Shown here: in pieces, positions 2,472 through 21,832 of the stretch
Layout of the letters: each line of letters opens with the position of its first letter
How positions within the stretch are numbered: the stretch's first letter is position 1
Origin: a virus
Reading direction: 5' to 3' (one strand)
DNA: 28,963 bases
IMG/VR virus record: IMGVR_UViG_3300013128_000025
Coordinates: 1 to 28,963 of that record
Notes under the pieces: generated by a model
Told to the model about the DNA's origin: nothing
Seen by the model: the letters and a program-made list of their open reading frames with translations, nothing else
Databases searched by the model: none
Position numbers and translations under genes: made by a program

Positions 2472-3149
2472 ATGAAAAATAAAAAAATTGGAATTTACTA
2501 TATTAAATCTAAAACAAAAAACAAGTATTACATTGGAAAAAGTGTAGACTTGAATCGTAGAAAAATAAGACACTATTCGGAACTTAGGACAAATTCACAC
2601 TTCAACCTCAAATTACAACGACATTATATAAAATATGGAGAATCGGATTTAGAATGGGGAATTTTAAAAGAAATACATATAAATTCAAATAATAGAGAAA
2701 ATGTAAAAATAGAATTAGGTGAATTAGAAAAAGAATATATAACCAAATACGATTCTTATCATAATGGGTTTAATTTTACAAAAGGAGGAGATGGATTAAA
2801 AGGATGTGGTAGAAAATTTTCATTACAAAACAAACATACTAATGTAATCAAAAAATTTAATAGTTTTGCCGAAGCAGCTGATTTTATAGGATGTTCAAGT
2901 GTAAGTTCAGTTCATGCACTTATTAGTAAAAAATGTAATTCCTGTAAAGGATGGTATAGAGTAAATGATATAAGAGAATCACATACCGGAAAATATAGTG
3001 TAAAGTTCACTCTATACCACGATTTACACGGGACTTATACAGGCAATAAAATATCAGAATTCAGAAGAAAATTTAATGTTAATTCGGATATTTCCTCGTT
3101 AATAAAAGGTAAATTAAAAACTTGCGGTGGATGGAGAACTACACCTTAA
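2472..3149 (+). CDS. Free-standing GIY-YIG homing endonuclease
   Basis: The 225-residue protein begins with the GIY-YIG nuclease core: GIYYI at residues 7-11 and YYIGKS at 19-24, then the catalytic-type arginine in LNRRKIRH, and later the conserved glycine-rich FTKGGDG. After residue 120 come two DNA-binding repeats of the NUMOD1/IENR1 type: one with FNSFAEAADFIGCS and CKGWYRV, and a second ending in CGGWRTT. It stands alone on the plus strand, opposite to its neighbours, and its last 11 bases overlap the end of the convergent UV endonuclease gene. No intron or intein is visible around it, so it is a free-standing mobile gene. Confidence 0.85.
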   Translation: MKNKKIGIYYIKSKTKNKYYIGKSVDLNRRKIRHYSELRTNSHFNLKLQRHYIKYGESDLEWGILKEIHINSNNRENVKIELGELEKEYITKYDSYHNGFNFTKGGDGLKGCGRKFSLQNKHTNVIKKFNSFAEAADFIGCSSVSSVHALISKKCNSCKGWYRVNDIRESHTGKYSVKFTLYHDLHGTYTGNKISEFRRKFNVNSDISSLIKGKLKTCGGWRTTP

Positions 3150-11989: not shown

Positions 11990-13048
11990 CTACAATTTAA
12001 AATCATCAAATGCATTATCACTAATAGTATTATCTATACCCTTAACATAACTACTCAATTCAGTTTCTTGAGGAGCTACTTGTAGTTTCTTACTATCATA
12101 GTAACTATCCAACCAACCAGCTAACGGATTGGTTTTAGTATTAGGATACAATTTCTTATAACCAAGACTAGTTAATCTATTATTAGCTAACCATTCAACA
12201 TAATTCTTAAGACTTTCAGAAGTTAACCCAATCAAATTACCTTTACTAAATAGATAATCAGCCCAATCTTTTTCTGCATTAACTGCCATTTCATAAGCAA
12301 CATATATCTTGTCTTCATTCTTCTTTACAATTTCTTGAAACCCTTCATCTGGATTATTAATCCAGTTTTTCATGATATTCTGAGTAATAGCTACGTGTAG
12401 ATTTTCATCTCTACTAATAAACTTAATAATCTTGCTGTTACCTTCCATCTTTCCACGATATCCAAAGTAGAAACTACAAGCAAAACTTACATAGAAGATT
12501 AATCCCTCAGTAATTTGAGTTGCTAATACTGCATCAAATAGTTGTTGTTTTACATCATCGCATGGTTTTAATAATTCATCATATTTCTTACTAATTTCAG
12601 TAGCTCTTCTTACAATTTCTTTATCATTCAAAATGCTATCAAAGAACTTGGTAGCATCTGGATAAACATTGTTCAAAATGTATGTATAACTATTACTGTG
12701 AATAGTTTCAAAGAAACTCCATGTATTCATACAAATCTCAAGTTCACTATTTGTGACATGTTTCATCAGTTCATGAATACTACGACTCAACATACTATCA
12801 GTCATAGTTTGAAATTTTAAATTACTATCAAAAACAAATCGTTCTTCATCAGATAAATTCTTATAATCGCTGATATCTTTAACTAGTGAAACCTCTTGAG
12901 GCCTCCAGAAGAAATTTAATTGTTGGTCATACAAATCATAAAACTTAGGATATTTGATCAAATCATATCTTTGGAGAGATAAATCTTCTCCTAAAAACAT
13001 TGGATTTCTTAATTGGTCTATATTTCTCTTATTTAATACTGTTTTCAT
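11990..13048 (-). CDS. nrdB: Ribonucleotide reductase class Ia, small subunit
   Basis: The 352-residue protein is a complete NrdB. The di-iron ligands and radical tyrosine are present with the spacing of the E. coli enzyme: D84 in TDSM, E114 and H117 in FFETIHSNSY, radical Y121, E181 in TEGLIFY, and E215 and H218 in RDENLH. The C-terminus ends in acidic and hydrophobic residues (FDDFKL), as needed to dock on NrdA. It supplies the tyrosyl radical for reduction of ribonucleotides. The gene starts 12 bases after nrdA-C ends, so the two subunits are made from one message. A weak AGGA lies upstream of the ATG. Confidence 0.95.
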   Translation of the reverse strand: MKTVLNKRNIDQLRNPMFLGEDLSLQRYDLIKYPKFYDLYDQQLNFFWRPQEVSLVKDISDYKNLSDEERFVFDSNLKFQTMTDSMLSRSIHELMKHVTNSELEICMNTWSFFETIHSNSYTYILNNVYPDATKFFDSILNDKEIVRRATEISKKYDELLKPCDDVKQQLFDAVLATQITEGLIFYVSFACSFYFGYRGKMEGNSKIIKFISRDENLHVAITQNIMKNWINNPDEGFQEIVKKNEDKIYVAYEMAVNAEKDWADYLFSKGNLIGLTSESLKNYVEWLANNRLTSLGYKKLYPNTKTNPLAGWLDSYYDSKKLQVAPQETELSSYVKGIDNTISDNAFDDFKL

Positions 13049-13060
13049 TTATTTATCCTA

Positions 13061-14146
13061 TTATAGAGCACAAGCACCGCTTTCACAACCGGATTCTTGT
13101 ACTACTTGTTGTTTTATTTCCTTCTTTTCATCCATAACGGTCTGTTTGTCACCGTCATCAGTATTAGCATAATACAAATTCTTTAGACCATATTTATAAG
13201 CCAATAACATATCCTTGATTACTTCTTGAACAGGAACTTTATTTTTTTCGTAACGAGATGGAATATAATAAGTATTTGTACTAATACTCATATCCGTAAA
13301 TTTTTGAATAGCCGCAGCTACTTTTAGATATCCTTCATTACTTGGCATATCAAAAGCAAAAGTATAATCATCTTTATACTTGTCAATATTTGGAACTACT
13401 ACAGGCAAAATATTACTCTTGCTACCCTTAAAACTAATAGCACTACGTGGTGGTTCAATACCATTGGTAGAACTTTGAATTACACTACTAGATTCAACAG
13501 GCATACAAGCAGTCAATGTACTATGACGCATTCCATATTTCTTGATTTCTTCACGAAGCGTTTCCCAATCACAATGTAGAGGTTCTGTGATAAATTCATC
13601 TACATCTCTCTTGTATGTATCAATTGGTAGAACTCCTTGACTAAATTTAGTACGGTCAAATTTTTCACACTTACCAACTTCTTTCGCCATTTCTACACTT
13701 GCCTTAATCAAGTAATAACTGGTTTTCTCCATCCATTTAGCAACAAAGTTTGGAGCTTTAGTATCCCAATACTTCAAACCTTCTTTAGCCAATAGAGCAG
13801 CCAAATTACTTACACCTACGCCAAGACTACGACGTTTCTTTGCAAAGTTTTCTGCAGCTGGTACGAAATAATCTTGATGTTCAATCAAAGCATCCAACAT
13901 TCTAACAATAATGTCACAAACACTTTCCATTTCTTCATCATCCTTAATTTCTAACCAATTCAAAGCAGCCAAGATGCAAACTCCAATTTCTCCATTTTTA
14001 TCATTAACATCAGTAATTGGAATTAATGGATGATTGACTTCAAGACAATTGTGAACTAATATGTTATTTGCATAAAAATTATTATTATCTTTTACGGTGA
14101 TGTCATATACATCTGATTTTTCTTTTATTTTTTTAATTTTTAACAT
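13061..14146 (-). CDS. nrdA: Split-intein C half fused to C-terminal half of ribonucleotide reductase large subunit
   Basis: The first 33 residues are an intein C-terminal piece (blocks F and G: VYDITVKDNNNFYANN, ending ILVHN). Residue 34 onward is the C-terminal half of NrdA, starting with CLEV, where the cysteine equals the catalytic thiyl-radical Cys439 of E. coli. The rest carries the redox-active partner cysteine in GVCILAA, the MPVESSS and TNGIEPPR loops, the tyrosine pair in LKNLYYANT and the C-terminal shuttle cysteines in GCESGACAL. The C-extein is 328 residues; with the N-extein of 433 the joined protein is 761, the length of E. coli NrdA. Its start overlaps the homing endonuclease stop by 14 bases, suggesting coupled translation. 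Confidence 0.92.
   Translation of the reverse strand: MLKIKKIKEKSDVYDITVKDNNNFYANNILVHNCLEVNHPLIPITDVNDKNGEIGVCILAALNWLEIKDDEEMESVCDIIVRMLDALIEHQDYFVPAAENFAKKRRSLGVGVSNLAALLAKEGLKYWDTKAPNFVAKWMEKTSYYLIKASVEMAKEVGKCEKFDRTKFSQGVLPIDTYKRDVDEFITEPLHCDWETLREEIKKYGMRHSTLTACMPVESSSVIQSSTNGIEPPRSAISFKGSKSNILPVVVPNIDKYKDDYTFAFDMPSNEGYLKVAAAIQKFTDMSISTNTYYIPSRYEKNKVPVQEVIKDMLLAYKYGLKNLYYANTDDGDKQTVMDEKKEIKQQVVQESGCESGACAL
14048..14146 (-). other. NrdA split intein, C-terminal part (IntC, 33 residues)
   Basis: This segment encodes the intein block F/G region. It ends in His-Asn at the splice junction, the residues needed for Asn cyclisation, and is followed by extein Cys as the +1 nucleophile. The junction lies directly before the active-site cysteine of the reductase. 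Confidence 0.9.
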
Positions 14147-14894
14147 ATTTCAAAAGTCCTTTTTTTAAGTTTAACATTGTTATTTTATTGTCATCTGAAT
14201 ACAACATATAATTATTTTTTCCATCATTATACCAATTTCTACCAATTATTGATTTAGATAAATTTTCACACCGTTGCTTATCTTTTTTATCATATACAAA
14301 ATCAGAATCATTAAAAGTTATATTTTTATTTTTTAATTCATTTTTTAATTGTTTTAAAAATCCAATTCTACCTTCACCATTAAATCTAAATTTTGTATAA
14401 TTAACAGGCATTTTTTTTGTTTTACAAAAATTAAACCAATGCCTAAATATTAATTTTTTATTAATTTTAAAATATTCTACTGCTTCTTCAATTATTTGTT
14501 CATCCGTATACCCAGAATAATTTGGATTTTTATTTCCCGATGAAAGTTTTTTTCTAATATTAATAAATTTATTATATTTTTCTTGATTTAATAAATTTAT
14601 TATATCACCACCATCCCCACCTTCTGTTGAATTTAATCCATTTTTAAATGTATTATACTGTTGAATATAATTTTTTTCTAATTGTTTAGCTTCAGATTCC
14701 TCATTACATTCAATTAATATTTTAGATATTATATTCTTAGGTCCATATTTTCTAATATCTCTATAAAATTTTGTATCAATTCCACTAATTGCATTTAAAA
14801 TATGTTTATGCAATCGTTCTTCTAGAGATTTAGAAGTATATCCAATATAAGATTTTTCAAAAATTGTATGCATATAGATTATATATTTTTCCAT
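14133..14894 (-). CDS. GIY-YIG homing endonuclease inside fractured nrdA
   Basis: The 253-residue protein has the GIY-YIG core at its start: YIIYMH (4-9) and SYIGYTS (15-21), with LEERLHKH carrying the conserved arginine, and the glycine-rich GGDGGD near residue 92. The region with RKKLSSGNKNPNYSGY is a NUMOD3-type DNA-binding element, and the end (GRNWYNDGKNNYML) is a common C-terminal motif of phage homing nucleases. It sits exactly between the two intein-bearing halves of nrdA. A 19-base-pair inverted repeat lies three bases upstream of its start, and its stop overlaps the nrdA-C start. It presumably cuts intein-free nrdA alleles to spread the whole cassette. Confidence 0.88.
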   Translation of the reverse strand: MEKYIIYMHTIFEKSYIGYTSKSLEERLHKHILNAISGIDTKFYRDIRKYGPKNIISKILIECNEESEAKQLEKNYIQQYNTFKNGLNSTEGGDGGDIINLLNQEKYNKFINIRKKLSSGNKNPNYSGYTDEQIIEEAVEYFKINKKLIFRHWFNFCKTKKMPVNYTKFRFNGEGRIGFLKQLKNELKNKNITFNDSDFVYDKKDKQRCENLSKSIIGRNWYNDGKNNYMLYSDDNKITMLNLKKGLLKYVKN

Positions 14895-14897
14895 AGT

Positions 14898-14949
14898 ATT
14901 GAGTGGTTTACTTCATATAAATATATCCCAATGAAGTAAACCACTCAAT
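14898..14949 (-). repeat. Perfect 19-base inverted repeat before the nrdA homing endonuclease
   Basis: Arms 14898-14916 and 14931-14949 are exact reverse complements (ATTGAGTGGTTTACTTCAT and its complement) around a 14-base AT-rich loop. In the leftward message the hairpin begins just after the nrdA-N stop and ends three bases before the endonuclease ATG, so it would cover the ribosome landing site. It has no following T run, so it looks like a translation block rather than a terminator. Confidence 0.88.
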
Positions 14950-14954
14950 TATTT

Positions 14955-16571
14955 TTATATAATATCTAAGATATCAGATTCATTTAAATCTTTAGCTTTT
15001 ACATATCCTCTGTTTTTAGTAAAAATTAAATGGTCTTCTGTGCATTTAATAGTATACCCAGTTTCTTCATCCGTAATTTCTAACAATTCTACATCAACTC
15101 CGGTGATATTTGAATTTAAAACTTCTTTGTAAGAAATTTCTTGATTATCTATATTTTTTGATAATACACTTATGTTTTTATTTTGTTTAAATAAATCATC
15201 CAATTCTTTGATTGATAATTTCATCGGAACATTGTCAATGATACTAGAAACTTTTGTATCCGGATGTAAACATAAATTACTTGTATCCACTTGATCTAAC
15301 CAACTACCATGTTCATTTGCATGATCTACAAACATTGTATAAATACGGCCAGTTTCAAGACGTTCCTTAGCAAGTAGTCCCATCAATTCACGAGCAGTAA
15401 CCTTCTTCTTGAACTTAATATTCTTGTTAGCTTCAGCCTTTTCATACGCTTCTCTAAATCCTTCCATACCAAACTTATTCCACAATGAAGCACATTCATG
15501 GTAACTAAACAATGTTACGTCTTGATTCTTCAAGAAACGTTCAAAGATTAGTTTATCTAAACCAATACAATAGTCTAGTTTACGAACACGGTTATCATCA
15601 GTTCCTTGATTGTTCTTCAATACAAGGATATCAAGTATATCATAATGAAACCAAGCAAAGTTGACAGTGGCACTACCCCCTCTAATACCATTTTGATGAC
15701 AACTCTTTACAGTAGACTCAAATGCTTTAGCAAATGGTATAGGGCCTGTGTGCATTACTTCGCCATTTCTAATAGGTGCATTAGTGGCACGTAGTCTTGA
15801 TAGATTCAATCCAATGCCATAACGACTAGCTGTAGCAAATCCAACTGCACTATTGTTACTGAAAATACTACGTAAATCATCGTCTACTGTAAAGAGAGAA
15901 CACGAAGCATAACTTTTCATAGGAGTTCTTACTCCAGCCATAATTGGTGTGGGTAAATTGATTTTATGCTTACTAAAATAGTTATAAGCTTTCTTTACAT
16001 ATTCAATACGGTTTTCTTTATAATCTTTAAAAAAAGTCATTGCAATCAACATATATGCAAATTGTGGAGTTTCATAAATAGTTTTAGTAACTCTATTTTG
16101 AACTAAATATTTATCACACAATTGTTTAATACCAGCATAAGTGAAGTTAAAATCACGGTCGTGTTTTAGATATTCATCCAATTTATCAAACTCTTGTTTA
16201 CTATACCAGTCTAGAATTTCTTCATCATAAACCAAAACATCAATATTAGCTCTAACTAAATCATGCAGTTTAGGAGGATTCTTCCCACCCCAAACATTTT
16301 TTCTTAATCTATAATTCAATAGTCTTGACGCAACATATTGATAGTTCGGTTTATTTTCACTTATCAAATTAGATGCAGCTTCAATTAACATTGTATGAAT
16401 GTCACCAGAAGACATCTTATCAAAGAATGATAGATGAGCATTCATAGCAACTTCTTCAAAACTTACATTTTTAATATCTTCAGTAGCCCATTGTAAAACC
16501 TTATTGATTTTATCAACACTAAATTTCTCCAAACTTCCGTTACGTTTCTTTATAAAAATTTCTTTATTCAT
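14955..16571 (-). CDS. nrdA: N-terminal half of ribonucleotide reductase large subunit fused to split-intein N half
   Basis: Residues 1-433 are the N-terminal half of class Ia NrdA: an ATP-cone allosteric domain (about 1-95, starting IKKRNGSLEKFSVDKI), the redox-active C224 in SYASCSLF (E. coli C225), and the conserved GIGLNLSRLRA and NGIRGGSATV segments. It stops after TSNL, one residue before the catalytic cysteine. Residues 434-538 are intein: block A CLHPDTKV and block B CTEDHLIFT with the TxxH motif. The N-terminal 90 residues are close to the E. coli type. A promoter with a very short leader may lie at 16586-16613. Splicing in trans with the 13061-14146 product is required for activity. 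Confidence 0.93.
   Translation of the reverse strand: MNKEIFIKKRNGSLEKFSVDKINKVLQWATEDIKNVSFEEVAMNAHLSFFDKMSSGDIHTMLIEAASNLISENKPNYQYVASRLLNYRLRKNVWGGKNPPKLHDLVRANIDVLVYDEEILDWYSKQEFDKLDEYLKHDRDFNFTYAGIKQLCDKYLVQNRVTKTIYETPQFAYMLIAMTFFKDYKENRIEYVKKAYNYFSKHKINLPTPIMAGVRTPMKSYASCSLFTVDDDLRSIFSNNSAVGFATASRYGIGLNLSRLRATNAPIRNGEVMHTGPIPFAKAFESTVKSCHQNGIRGGSATVNFAWFHYDILDILVLKNNQGTDDNRVRKLDYCIGLDKLIFERFLKNQDVTLFSYHECASLWNKFGMEGFREAYEKAEANKNIKFKKKVTARELMGLLAKERLETGRIYTMFVDHANEHGSWLDQVDTSNLCLHPDTKVSSIIDNVPMKLSIKELDDLFKQNKNISVLSKNIDNQEISYKEVLNSNITGVDVELLEITDEETGYTIKCTEDHLIFTKNRGYVKAKDLNESDILDII
14958..15272 (-). other. NrdA split intein, N-terminal part (IntN, 105 residues)
   Basis: The segment starts with the nucleophilic Cys of block A (CLHPDTKV) directly after extein TSNL, contains block B (CTEDH) at about residues 77-81 and ends ESDILDII. 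Its length is that of a classical split-intein N half, and no endonuclease domain is included. Confidence 0.88.
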
Positions 16572-18114: not shown

Positions 18115-19182
18115 TTAAAGAACCATTGAATTTATTTTTCCAAATACTTCATTTAACCAAACCATACTATTTGGAAAATTGTTTTGCATACTATCTTCTA
18201 CCAATAACTTACTAAAACCAAATCTATCTAATTTACCGATTGGTTTTTCCATAATTTCATTGATTCTCAATTGCGAGAATGTTTGAATTTGTGTATCATG
18301 CAATTGCATTAGATCATAATTTCTTTGCATAATATCTTTATTTTGCAATACACTGTCATATAACTTAAGTTTACCTTTATGACTATCACTGTAGTTATAC
18401 AACTCTTGTAATGTGTAATGTTTATCTTCTTTCAGAATAGGATAACATTTCAAAATTGTTTTAAGTCCGGCACCTTTAATACCGTCAATGTTATCACTTT
18501 CATCACCTTCCATAATTCTGTAGTTAATGAAGTTACCGCAACTAATATTATACTCTAATAAGATTTCAGCACAACCATACAATTTCTTTTTGGTAGGACT
18601 CCAAATCTTAATTTTATCACTAGCCAACTGTAAGAAATCTTTGTCAGCACTCATTATAGTTACATTACTATTCTTAAAATGTTCTTTAGATAAATATGCA
18701 ATAGTATCATCTGCTTCAATATGGTCAATTGCTAATGTGGTAACAGGCAATTTATCCAAATATTGAACGGTTCTTAATAATTGTCTTTTTAGATTTTTAT
18801 CTTCAGAATCCGGAGTGCTTAAATCGTCATAAACTCTATTAAGCCTAATTTTAGTCTTTCTACCACTCTTATATTCTGGATATATTTTTCTTCTCTTAAG
18901 AGAACCACCTTGACCATCAGACACAATAATTACCTTTGTAGGATTGATTAACTTAACTGCATAACCAATACTCTTTAAACATCCTGCAATACCACCTGTA
19001 TGCTCACCGTTTGAATTAAGAGAAGGAGAGGCCATGAATGCTCTAATAAAAGTATTCATGAAATCAACAATTAACACTTCAGAATTAGGGGATCTATTCA
19101 ATCCCCCAACTCTGTCTTCTTGTTTTACATTATCAAATAAAGAAAACAACCTCTTCTTTTCGTTGTCAGATAGATTATTCAT
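18115..19182 (-). CDS. 5'-3' exonuclease / flap nuclease (T4 RNase H-like)
   Basis: The protein has the acidic motifs of the PIN/FEN family: VLIVDFMNTF with D40, the DGQGGSLKRR loop, IEADD (155-159), SADKD (178-182), and the helix-three-turn-helix GDESDNIDGIKGAGL (226-240). These nucleases remove RNA primers and 5' flaps during lagging-strand synthesis. I chose the ATG at 19182, giving 355 residues and an 8-base overlap with the uvsX-C stop; an in-frame ATG at 19236 exists but would add 18 residues lying inside uvsX and unlike the family. It sits in the replication block directly between uvsX and the helicase. Confidence 0.85.
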   Translation of the reverse strand: MNNLSDNEKKRLFSLFDNVKQEDRVGGLNRSPNSEVLIVDFMNTFIRAFMASPSLNSNGEHTGGIAGCLKSIGYAVKLINPTKVIIVSDGQGGSLKRRKIYPEYKSGRKTKIRLNRVYDDLSTPDSEDKNLKRQLLRTVQYLDKLPVTTLAIDHIEADDTIAYLSKEHFKNSNVTIMSADKDFLQLASDKIKIWSPTKKKLYGCAEILLEYNISCGNFINYRIMEGDESDNIDGIKGAGLKTILKCYPILKEDKHYTLQELYNYSDSHKGKLKLYDSVLQNKDIMQRNYDLMQLHDTQIQTFSQLRINEIMEKPIGKLDRFGFSKLLVEDSMQNNFPNSMVWLNEVFGKINSMVL

Positions 19183-20023
19183 TCTCAGAAGATATACCAG
19201 CTTCATCATCAGTGTCAACAACTGCGTCTTCAACAATGATACTATTTGGATCCTTGTATTTCATAATTATTTCATCACAAATTTTCAAATAAATTTCTTC
19301 ATTCAAAATTTTATCATTTTTCATTGTTTCTACAAAGTCTTTTGACTGGAACTTCCATTCAGAACCATCATCTTTCTTATAAGTGTAATAAGCACCACCT
19401 TGTTTGATAATGTTATTTTCTTTTAGTACTTTGATCCAACTACTATAGTCCGCAATACCACTGTCAAAGTAAATGTCAAAATTAGCTTGACGCTGAGGCG
19501 GTCCCATTCGATTTTTAATAACTACGGCTTTACACTCGTTACCAATAACTTCTTCACCTTTCTTAAGTTTACCAGTGTTGTTCAATCGGACTCTTACACT
19601 ACAATGATAAGCAAGTGCCTTACCACCACTAACAGTATTATGATTTAATCGTCCATTGGCATAATAATTATGCGTATTTTCGATATCAAAATCTACAACT
19701 TTTATTGGTTCGTTAACTTTTTTGAAATCGTTATGATCTTTTAAATGAATTTCAACTCCATTTTCAATAATTCGATGTAAATCCGTACCTTTTAATATAC
19801 CGTCACTGTAATGGTATTCCGATGGAGTTTTTATTATAAATTTATTAATTTTATTATAACAATCCTGACCCGATTTAAAATCCCGACCATATACTTCTAT
19901 ATCCATATCCGATATATCTATTTCTTCAACGTTTTCGGAGGAATAATTATTTATTCCTAAAAATCTTTCCGCAAACTCGGCAATCGTTAGTTCTTCTTCT
20001 ATGTATTTATCTTGTGTATTCAT
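19175..20023 (-). CDS. uvsX: Split-intein C half fused to C-terminal part of UvsX recombinase
   Basis: Residues 1-129 are intein and 130-282 are the C-terminal part of a RecA/UvsX recombinase. The intein part contains a block-B-like FIIKTPSEYHYSDG (62-75) and blocks F/G KVVDFDIENTHNYYANG ending RLNHN. The +1 extein residue is Thr, followed by VSGGKALAYHCSVRVRL, the strand after DNA-binding loop L2 in RecA. The rest (KNRMGPPQRQANFDIYF) matches the recombinase core. The acidic C-terminus suits gp32/UvsY contacts in such proteins (inference). Its start overlaps the endonuclease stop by 17 bases. Confidence 0.9.
   Translation of the reverse strand: MNTQDKYIEEELTIAEFAERFLGINNYSSENVEEIDISDMDIEVYGRDFKSGQDCYNKINKFIIKTPSEYHYSDGILKGTDLHRIIENGVEIHLKDHNDFKKVNEPIKVVDFDIENTHNYYANGRLNHNTVSGGKALAYHCSVRVRLNNTGKLKKGEEVIGNECKAVVIKNRMGPPQRQANFDIYFDSGIADYSSWIKVLKENNIIKQGGAYYTYKKDDGSEWKFQSKDFVETMKNDKILNEEIYLKICDEIIMKYKDPNSIIVEDAVVDTDDEAGISSENE
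19637..20023 (-). other. UvsX split intein, C-terminal part (IntC, 129 residues)
   Basis: This long IntC begins where a 15-residue IntN leaves off and contains nearly the whole Hint fold, including a block B region and the terminal His-Asn. The +1 residue is Thr. The size split (15 plus 129) is that of an atypical, N-short split intein. Confidence 0.85.
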
Positions 20024-21044
20024 ATATTGTTTTTTTTATACTGTCTATGTTATTTATAATATCATGTTCCCAGAAAAATAAATAAATAAATCCATTGTTT
20101 TCAAAAATTTCTTTTTTTCTAGAATCATAGGCCCATACATCTTTTACAGATCTATTTTTATGTGTAAAATCGTTTTCGTTTAAATATTTCGGATTAGCGT
20201 GCCAATAATCACCATAACATTCTACGATTAGATTTTTAGATCTTACATAAAAGTCAGGCAAATAACAAGTTTTTTTAAATTCAAAAATTTTTTCGTGTTC
20301 CCAATCTATGGAAAAATTATTTAATATACTACCCACTAAATATTCAATATTATTAAGTTTATATCCATTTAATTCAAAATTTTTATTTTTATGTGAATTT
20401 ATCATTCTACAAAACATCTTTTTATTAGATGATTTTGCATATTCCCACATTTTTTTAGAAGATAATGATATTTTTTTAATTCTCTCTGGAGAATTCATCA
20501 CACACTTTATGTAATCTTTATTTTCTTGATTTTTGTAGAAATCAGAAACTTTTTTTCCATGATTTTCATAAGAATAATCTTGGTTTGCTTTAATTTTGTT
20601 GACATACTCATCTTGTTTCCACAACTTTTTATTTCTAGATGAAATTTCTTTTGAATGTTTAAATCCCCAATCAGATTGTATTTTTCTAACTCTATCACCA
20701 TCTTTGGATAAATAAAAGTTTTTAATACCATTCACATTATTATTTTTTAACATTTTAAGATATTCATTCAATCTCTCAACATCTTTATTATACGTTTTAA
20801 TATAAAACGGTATAAGACTGTACATGCTATATAACTTTTTTCTCTCGTTATATACCTCTTCTCCTATTTCCCCCAAATAATGTATATAATATTCTTTGCC
20901 TGTTTTAGATATTTTTTTGTTATTTACAATACATTTGAGTGGAAATTCTTGAGTTTTTCTTTTTTCTTTTTTAATTATAAATTTAAAAATTGGTTTATTT
21001 TTCTTCCATTTTAAATTTATATCTAAATATTCTAGTAAAATCAT
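20007..21044 (-). CDS. Vsr-like (EDxHD) homing endonuclease inside fractured uvsX
   Basis: The 345-residue protein has a Vsr-like nuclease domain at its C-terminus: NIEYLVGSIL, a KTCYLPDFYV strand, VECYGDYWHANP (the D and H of EDxHD), then WAYDSRKKEIFENNG and WEHDI. The N-terminal two thirds are lysine-rich with repeated short DNA-binding elements of the kind in SPERIKKISLSSKKMW. It lies precisely between uvsX-N and uvsX-C. Vsr-like nucleases at split inteins are the type described for fractured genes. Its start has the only perfect Shine-Dalgarno in the window, TAGGAGG, locked in a hairpin (21049-21092). Its 3' end overlaps the uvsX-C start. Confidence 0.87.
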   Translation of the reverse strand: MILLEYLDINLKWKKNKPIFKFIIKKEKRKTQEFPLKCIVNNKKISKTGKEYYIHYLGEIGEEVYNERKKLYSMYSLIPFYIKTYNKDVERLNEYLKMLKNNNVNGIKNFYLSKDGDRVRKIQSDWGFKHSKEISSRNKKLWKQDEYVNKIKANQDYSYENHGKKVSDFYKNQENKDYIKCVMNSPERIKKISLSSKKMWEYAKSSNKKMFCRMINSHKNKNFELNGYKLNNIEYLVGSILNNFSIDWEHEKIFEFKKTCYLPDFYVRSKNLIVECYGDYWHANPKYLNENDFTHKNRSVKDVWAYDSRKKEIFENNGFIYLFFWEHDIINNIDSIKKTIYEYTR

Positions 21045-21048
21045 ATTA

Positions 21049-21092
21049 CCTCCTACTAAGGACTTATTTAAGTATAAGTATATAGTAGGAGG
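21049..21092 (-). promoter_or_regulatory. Hairpin sequestering the endonuclease ribosome binding site
   Basis: In the leftward message CCTCCTACTA (21083-21092) pairs perfectly with TAGTAGGAGG (21049-21058), whose last bases are the Shine-Dalgarno of the endonuclease gene, four bases before ATG. An inner stem ACTTAT/ATAAGT with a 6-base loop extends the structure. The hairpin would hide the site in read-through transcripts, as is known for the T4 I-TevI gene. Confidence 0.85.
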
Positions 21093-21100
21093 AGGAAAAA

Positions 21101-21832
21101 TTAAATTTTATATCTAATTTTTATTTTTGTTGTATACGGATCAACACAATATTTATCACCAAATGCCATAGCATTTATATTTTGACGCAGTTGATTGGTA
21201 AATACGGTAAGAACTTTTTGTTTACCAATCATATTAGTGATTTTGCGCATTGCCTTACTGATAATAATACTCTTACCCGTAGCAAATCCATCTTTACCAT
21301 GATCACTCTCTAGTTCTGCCTTTGTAGAAGCAGCAGCTACAGAGTCAACGATTAATGTTAAAATACGATTTTTGTTGCTCTTACGAACAATTCCAATCAT
21401 TCTTTCCATGTTTTCAAAAATATCTTCTACAGTATCTACTTGAACATATAGAAGATTTTTTAGATCTACACCAAGACTTTTCCAGAATGCTGGAGCAGCA
21501 GCATTTTCTGTATCTAATACTACAGCAATACCACCTTTTCTTTGCGTTTCTGCACAAATATGTGCGGATACTAGACTCTTACCAGTTCCTTCCAAACCGT
21601 TGAACTCAATCATTTTACCAATTGGTAATCCACCATGTGGACGATTACTAATGGCTAAGTCCAACATAGAAGATCCAGTACTAATCCAGTCACTAATATC
21701 TGCCGGATTTTCCTCTTCATCTAAAAAATAAGCAATCTTACCACCGTCTTTATTTGCTTTGTTTAATTCATTAGCCAATAACTCGGCTAATTCGTCTCTC
21801 TTCGTTGAATCTTTTTCTGTTTTCTTTTTCAT
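21101..21832 (-). CDS. uvsX: N-terminal part of UvsX recombinase fused to 15-residue split-intein N half
   Basis: Residues 1-228 are the ATPase core of a RecA/UvsX recombinase: Walker A GLEGTGKS (79-86), the catalytic glutamate in DTENA (107-111), Walker B LTLIVDSVAA (158-167) and the NQLRQNI strand leading into loop L2. The extein stops after FGDKY. Residues 229-243 (CVDPYTTKIKIRYKI) are an intein block A and nothing more, followed by TAA. Joined with the other part the recombinase is 381 residues, near T4 UvsX (391). It promotes strand exchange and recombination-dependent replication together with the gp32-like gene just upstream. A hairpin and a possible promoter precede it. Confidence 0.92.
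   Translation of the reverse strand: MKKKTEKDSTKRDELAELLANELNKANKDGGKIAYFLDEEENPADISDWISTGSSMLDLAISNRPHGGLPIGKMIEFNGLEGTGKSLVSAHICAETQRKGGIAVVLDTENAAAPAFWKSLGVDLKNLLYVQVDTVEDIFENMERMIGIVRKSNKNRILTLIVDSVAAASTKAELESDHGKDGFATGKSIIISKAMRKITNMIGKQKVLTVFTNQLRQNINAMAFGDKYCVDPYTTKIKIRYKI
21104..21148 (-). other. UvsX split intein, N-terminal part (IntN, 15 residues)
   Basis: The IntN starts with the nucleophilic Cys after FGDKY and ends CVDPYTTKIKIRYKI, stop. It covers only block A and the first strands. Very short natural IntN pieces are known from atypical split inteins such as AceL-TerL and VidaL. Confidence 0.85.

Follow-up and report, generated by a model that had tools for sequence, protein, structure and literature searches.

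The question raised by the nrdA locus of IMG/VR virus record IMGVR_UViG_3300013128_000025 (positions 1–28,963; this whole stretch of 28,963 nt is hereafter the window) is what breaks the gene of a class Ia ribonucleotide reductase (RNR) into two pieces immediately before its catalytic cysteine. Our answer, to which we give a probability of about 0.87, is a mobile fractured-gene element: trans-splicing intein halves would rejoin the enzyme, a homing endonuclease would spread the element, and a hairpin would control the endonuclease. The features of this reading that comparison of sequences carries directly are the boundaries, the intact motifs, the precise empty sites, horizontal transfer, co-conversion in relatives, conservation of the hairpin, and target mimicry.

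The nrdA gene lies on the minus strand and is interrupted by a 1,225-bp block at 14048–15272, exactly the coordinates proposed in an initial annotation of this DNA. The first gene (16571–14955) encodes 433 NrdA residues followed by a 105-residue intein N half, and the last (14146–13061) a 33-residue intein C half followed by 328 NrdA residues. Between them stands a separate GIY-YIG gene (253 aa, 14894–14133, minus strand), whose 3' end overlaps the start of the intein C half by 14 nt. With a host gene broken by a split intein and a separate endonuclease gene, the locus agrees with the definition of a fractured gene. The features are as follows.

15273–16571, minus strand: NrdA N-extein, 433 aa, ending in DTSNL (Pfam ATP-cone and RNR domains; phmmer match to E. 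coli R1 1–425)
14955–15272, minus strand: intein N half CLHPDT...LDII, 105 aa at 15272–14958, with its stop codon at 14957–14955 (Pfam Intein_splicing)
14898–14949, minus strand: perfect 19-bp inverted repeat or RNA hairpin, lying between the stop of the intein N half and the endonuclease ATG (fold z −7.6)
14900–14914, minus strand: operator-like arm GAAGTAAACCACTCA, resembling the nrdA target at 14027–14041
14133–14894, minus strand: GIY-YIG homing endonuclease gene, 253 aa (Pfam GIY-YIG, E = 1e-8)
14048–14146, minus strand: intein C half MLKIKK...NILVHN, 33 aa (Pfam Intein_splicing)
13061–14047, minus strand: NrdA C-extein CLEV...CESGACAL, residue 1 equivalent to E. coli Cys439 (phmmer alignment)
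14027–14041, minus strand: target-like stretch GAAGTCAATCATCCA, codons E441-V-N-H-P445, +6 to +20 after the insertion point (profile and offset tests)
11990–13048, minus strand: NrdB small subunit, directly downstream of nrdA (Pfam Ribonuc_red_sm, E = 3e-60)

The Pfam Intein_splicing domain is matched in both intein halves (E = 1.1e-6 and 6.8e-7, below Pfam's own cut-off), and the class-1-type splicing residues are all present across the two genes: C1, TxxH at 78–81 (TEDH), the penultimate H-N (VHN), and Cys at +1. Among solved structures, the N half is closest to the NrdJ-1 split intein (8ubs, E = 7e-14). Equivalents of the class Ia NrdA residues C225, C462, Y730/Y731, and C754/C759, which are the remaining catalytic cysteines and the tyrosines of the radical path, were all found in the exteins (SYASCSLF, GVCIL, LYYANT, and CESGAC). 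The thiyl-radical cysteine of E. coli is Cys439. When compared with PDB chains by phmmer, the C-extein has its residue 1 opposite E. coli R1 residue 439 (E = 5e-103); the N-extein follows R1 colinearly as far as residue 425, which leaves DTSNL as the counterpart of QSNL438. This alignment, which the initial annotation had proposed as a check, agrees with its claim that the first C-extein cysteine is both the Cys439 equivalent and the +1 residue. From the sequence we infer protein splicing of the NrdA halves: the two gene products would come together, and trans-splicing would link SNL to CLEV, restoring the active site that surrounds the Cys439 equivalent, itself the predicted +1 nucleophile.

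A C-extein scan of IMG/VR yielded 80 nrdA loci, 77 of them uninterrupted, with N-extein residue 433 running gap-free into C-extein residue 1 (SNL/C, the slash marking the insertion point). Since all 77 natural empty alleles join at exactly this point, the intein boundaries are confirmed, and with them the originally proposed junctions, an N-extein ending in TSNL and a C-extein starting with CLEV at 14047. The +1 Cys is invariant in these 77 empty alleles, encoded by TGT in 67 and by TGC in 10. Around the site, diversity at third codon positions (0.34–0.35) is no different from the mean of the region (0.34). Protection of the Cys codon at the DNA level is rejected by the TGC codons and the ordinary third-position diversity. 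The earlier statement that the host cannot change this codon thus stands for the amino acid and fails for the codon; the target is protected as an amino acid. The general logic that conserved insertion sites hinder escape and deletion is already published (PMC2814812, PMC2988022).

The site is shared with other inteins, as the initial annotation had suggested checking. Both junctions could be read in 68 RNR loci of IMG/VR, of which 63 have SNL/C, between residues 438 and 439, and five have SNLC/C; 67 of the 68 are fractured, that is, not one open frame (the sample came from a profile of C halves, best 80 loci, and its proportions are not population frequencies). In Klebsiella phage KP13-7 and Campylobacter phages, a homologous intein lies one codon later (SNLC/CEI or TNLC/CEI), with residue 440 at +1. 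The empty Campylobacter phage CP21 reads TNLCCEISVPSH, the predicted spliced product, and empty RaK2 reads SNLCQEIDLP, with Gln at residue 440; KP13-7 apparently exchanged Gln440 for the +1 Cys by co-conversion along with the insertion. Because the SNLC/C register occurs in homologous inteins, the double role of Cys439 is common but not required; judging from these junctions, the +1 nucleophile need not be the radical cysteine.

Further interruptions were seen near this site and in other genes. The nrdA gene of KP13-7 (L011 1653–7183) is broken at three places: by an HNH-like open reading frame near residue 294, at the Cys site, and by a second split intein further on. Locus L005 (6124–8780) has a second split intein, accompanied by an endonuclease gene of its own, at MPVES/S of the NrdA C-extein; inteins in a comparable position occur in KP13-7 and the Campylobacter phages. 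At L133 (2606–4099), a class II-like RNR carries an intein before the catalytic cysteine (TNP/C...VHN/CGEV), the mirror of NPC/SEI in NrdJ-1. In L132, L137, and L146, a related C half occurs in a non-RNR gene (VHN/CLGGI[FY]SNRILR).

The carriers of the window's family are the window itself (together with the IMG/VR contig L002, which matches it exactly in every part compared), L001, L003, L004, and L005. On a tree of 82 nrdA alleles, these five carriers require five separate changes, unclustered and each isolated, and their intein C halves are 97–100% identical. In L001 and L005, the elements are about 98% identical in DNA (intein N half 98.1%, endonuclease 97.8%), compared with 91.8% for the N-exteins, which indicates horizontal transfer of the element; fourfold sites are equal at 75/81 in the element vs 101/147 in the N-extein (Fisher p = 2.6e-5). 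The isolated carriers and the 98% element in 92% N-exteins support the earlier claim that the element can invade other alleles, and we read it as horizontally mobile between phages by homing. In L004 (5001–5487), the endonuclease gene is lost save for a remnant and the hairpin is gone; both intein halves are open and still separate.

Comparison of filled and empty phages shows how far the exchange extends. In Yersinia phage vB_YenM_TG1, the split intein sits exactly at SNL/C and is accompanied by an HNH endonuclease. Against its empty relative phiR1-RT, the upstream sequence of TG1 is mostly 97–100% identical, the last 30 nt only 57%, and on the downstream side the replacement takes in about 56 nt. 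KP13-7 is nearly identical to its empty relative RaK2 upstream and only 70% identical in the first 30 nt downstream. The flanks of these two cultured phages thus show short co-conversion tracts. For the window's own lineage, the comparison with the nearest empty relative gave no clear call on co-conversion, because that relative is only 90% identical. In our model, the GIY-YIG endonuclease would cut empty nrdA near the site and drive homing, with repair copying in the 1,225-bp block together with short co-converted flanks.

The catalytic residues R27, E73, and N88 are conserved in the GIY-YIG endonuclease, and its AlphaFold2 model (mean pLDDT 81) matches the catalytic domain of I-TevI (1mk0, TMt 0.81). 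GIY-YIG and HNH endonucleases at the Cys439 site have in common a C-terminal domain, roughly 100 residues long (NP..SG.TD.E ... P.SFSK.RFNG; blastp down to 2e-17; invariant N123, P163, R170, F171, and G173); when one version of it was searched in 50,697 phage records, KP13-7 was the sole match. It thus appears that the nuclease part has been exchanged while a shared target-reading part was retained. Elsewhere in the window, a free-standing GIY-YIG endonuclease gene lies at 2472–3149 on the plus strand, opposite to its neighbours.

L001 and L003 retain the 19-bp hairpin over the endonuclease start, their changes in it being paired; it is absent in L004, where it was lost with the endonuclease. 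Of 30 non-redundant loci, 16 have a hairpin with a fold z score below −3. Sense-strand TATAAATA occurs in 12 of these 30 loci vs 1.1 expected from shuffles, and on the other strand in one; this suggests a T4-type late promoter in many relatives. A Shine-Dalgarno sequence lies inside the stem in TG1 and others. It should be noted that the E-values and shuffles leave some relatedness among loci.

One hairpin arm also resembles the nrdA target. In the window, GAAGTAAACCACTCA agrees with GAAGTCAATCATCCA at 12/16 positions over a 16-nt stretch (p = 0.003), and KP13-7 gives a further example, GAAATCACACTACCA vs GAGATTGACTTACCA. A general likeness of the hairpin to the cognate homing site over any offset was weak, and this measure was replaced by a leave-one-out consensus test: a profile was made from nrdA target sites, each cluster's own site being left out, and scored on the pre-endonuclease regions at all offsets. 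The match peaks at +6 to +20, codons 441–445 (E-I/V-x-L-P), with a Stouffer Z of 9.4 over 23 clusters at 70% identity, nine of which reach p < 0.05; at 45% identity, Z is 5.2 over 9 clusters. Offsets without overlap of +6 to +20 gave Z of about −2.1 to 2.1. Because the operator-like hairpin sequence mimics codons 441–445, the data suggest that the endonuclease reads these codons, catalytic Glu441 included, rather than the Cys codon.

The hairpins suggest I-TevI-type late expression and autorepression of the endonuclease. The hairpin at the start would probably hold the endonuclease back in read-through transcripts through a translational block, expression would be late, and the endonuclease may repress its own gene by binding the hairpin DNA that resembles codons 441–445; an operator mechanism as in I-TevI is our best guess for this autorepression. 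With little better than even confidence, we further propose that the split-intein endonucleases of this site form a modular family, in which a C-terminal domain set on GIY-YIG and HNH nucleases reads codons 441–445, the inverted repeat before each gene consists of two target copies around a late promoter, acting both as DNA operator and as RNA hairpin, and acquisition of the +1 nucleophile by co-conversion may allow two adjacent registers.

Several observations weigh against our reading. In the window's own hairpin, neither a clear Shine-Dalgarno sequence or ribosome-binding site (RBS) nor a sense TATAAATA was found, so that late expression is weakest for the window member; TATAAATA was rejected as the window's own late promoter, occurring only opposite the endonuclease strand (14916–14923). 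Pairing of hairpins with their own host's target is marginal (permutation p = 0.06–0.09), possibly because the arm mimics the general nrdA consensus. The mimicry was seen in the data before being tested, and the uvsX element of the same window, which has an RBS hairpin, tested negative for it. A different account of the hairpin, in which it terminates transcription or serves as a processing site between the nrdA and endonuclease genes and its target likeness is an insertion leftover or chance, draws on the strong symmetrical stem right after the N-half stop and on the marginal cognate pairing. However, the stem is not followed by a T run, NrdA needs the intein C half that lies downstream, TATAAATA is enriched on the sense strand only (12 vs 1 of 30), the likeness peaks at one offset in the leave-one-out test, and the hairpin disappears together with the endonuclease in L004; we consider this account unlikely, though it deserves a real share of the probability.

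Doubts about splicing itself carry much less weight. The nrdA of Aeromonas phage Aeh1, with its mobE insertion, works as two pieces (PMC2988022), and the NrdA fragments here could likewise assemble non-covalently, leaving the intein halves as relics. This is improbable: the splicing residues are all intact, the C half stays near-identical among carriers while the surrounding protein diverges, L004 keeps both halves open despite loss of the endonuclease, and an unspliced active site would be burdened at Cys439 with 105 extra residues as a tail and 33 as a head. We also give very little credence to the view that the element is kept for phage benefit, splicing at the radical cysteine acting as a switch with a redox or regulatory role. 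Inteins that splice conditionally are known from other systems (e.g., PMC6195587) and the insertion blocks the enzyme until splicing, but 77/80 relatives lack the element and its carriers are isolated single occurrences. A group I intron, brought to mind by the GIY-YIG endonucleases common in phage introns, is excluded by the lack of any Rfam match, and hence of a ribozyme core, within the window and by the Pfam intein domain in both halves, and an assembly artefact is contradicted by recurrence of the arrangement across cultured phages as well as dozens of independent contigs; the probability of either is negligible.

The window contains another fractured gene, uvsX (19175–21832, minus strand). 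Its N half ends GDKY/CVDPYTTKIKIRYKI, with an N-intein of 15 residues; the C half has 129 residues (NHN/T), and a separate DUF559-type (Vsr-like) endonuclease gene lies between the halves. This element resembles the UvsX inteins with an atypical split that serve as tools for labelling proteins. Before its endonuclease, at 21045–21100 (minus strand), lies an RBS-sequestering hairpin with AGGAGG in the 3' arm (z −3.4), in which no likeness to the uvsX insertion site was found.

Taken together, the observation made in the initial annotation is confirmed as real and not due to chance, and its interpretation as a whole is partly supported. The natural empty and filled alleles show how a parasite lives in an essential enzyme at its most constrained residue, and they separate two often-merged ideas: that the protein site is conserved, and that the target DNA cannot change. 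What appears to be new is the target-like hairpin over the endonuclease start, with an arm resembling nrdA codons 441–445 and often with a T4-type late promoter; it offers a cheap prediction of the DNA read by the endonucleases and of the timing of split-intein element expression. The Cys439 site is also a natural source of numerous split inteins with homology to NrdJ-1.

Fractured genes with split inteins are said to have been described by Dassa et al. 2009 (NAR 37:2560). Likened by description, the window has the same arrangement, a phage nrdA broken into two genes that each carry part of a split intein, with an endonuclease gene standing separately between them; it differs in the hairpin control and target mimicry, neither of which we found described in the accessible part of the literature. 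Global Ocean Sampling (GOS) data contain seven nrdA and two nrdJ intein interruptions (PMC3653736). NrdJ-1 is likewise inserted at the RNR catalytic cysteine, but its native junction in a class II RNR, NPC/SEI (PMC13123727), places it after that cysteine with Ser at +1, the same later register as SNLC/C, whereas the window's cysteine is itself +1. The intein of Aquifex aeolicus R2, between iron ligands (PMC8772380), also lies between catalytic residues of an RNR, but in the small subunit and as a contiguous intein with a LAGLIDADG endonuclease.

Among phages, the nrdA of KP13-7 (OP617745) is like that of the window in its intein N half (43%), C half (62%), GIY-YIG endonuclease (37%), and hairpin, and differs in its intein one codon later and in its further nrdA breaks. 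TG1 has its split intein at the identical position and a hairpin before the endonuclease, in its case with TATAAATA; its endonuclease, unlike the window's, is HNH. In I-TevI of the T4 td intron, a hairpin covers the RBS in early and middle transcripts and the RBS is freed in late ones; its operator is 15/20 identical to the homing site, and I-TevI represses itself (PMC2988022). I-TevI is intron-encoded, has no split intein, and uses a different DNA-binding part; an RBS in the hairpin and a late promoter are found in I-TevI and many relatives, the window having neither in clear form. What the window shares with I-TevI (PDB 1mk0) is the GIY-YIG catalytic fold, the stable hairpin at the endonuclease start, and an operator-like sequence, predicted for the window, that resembles the homing site.

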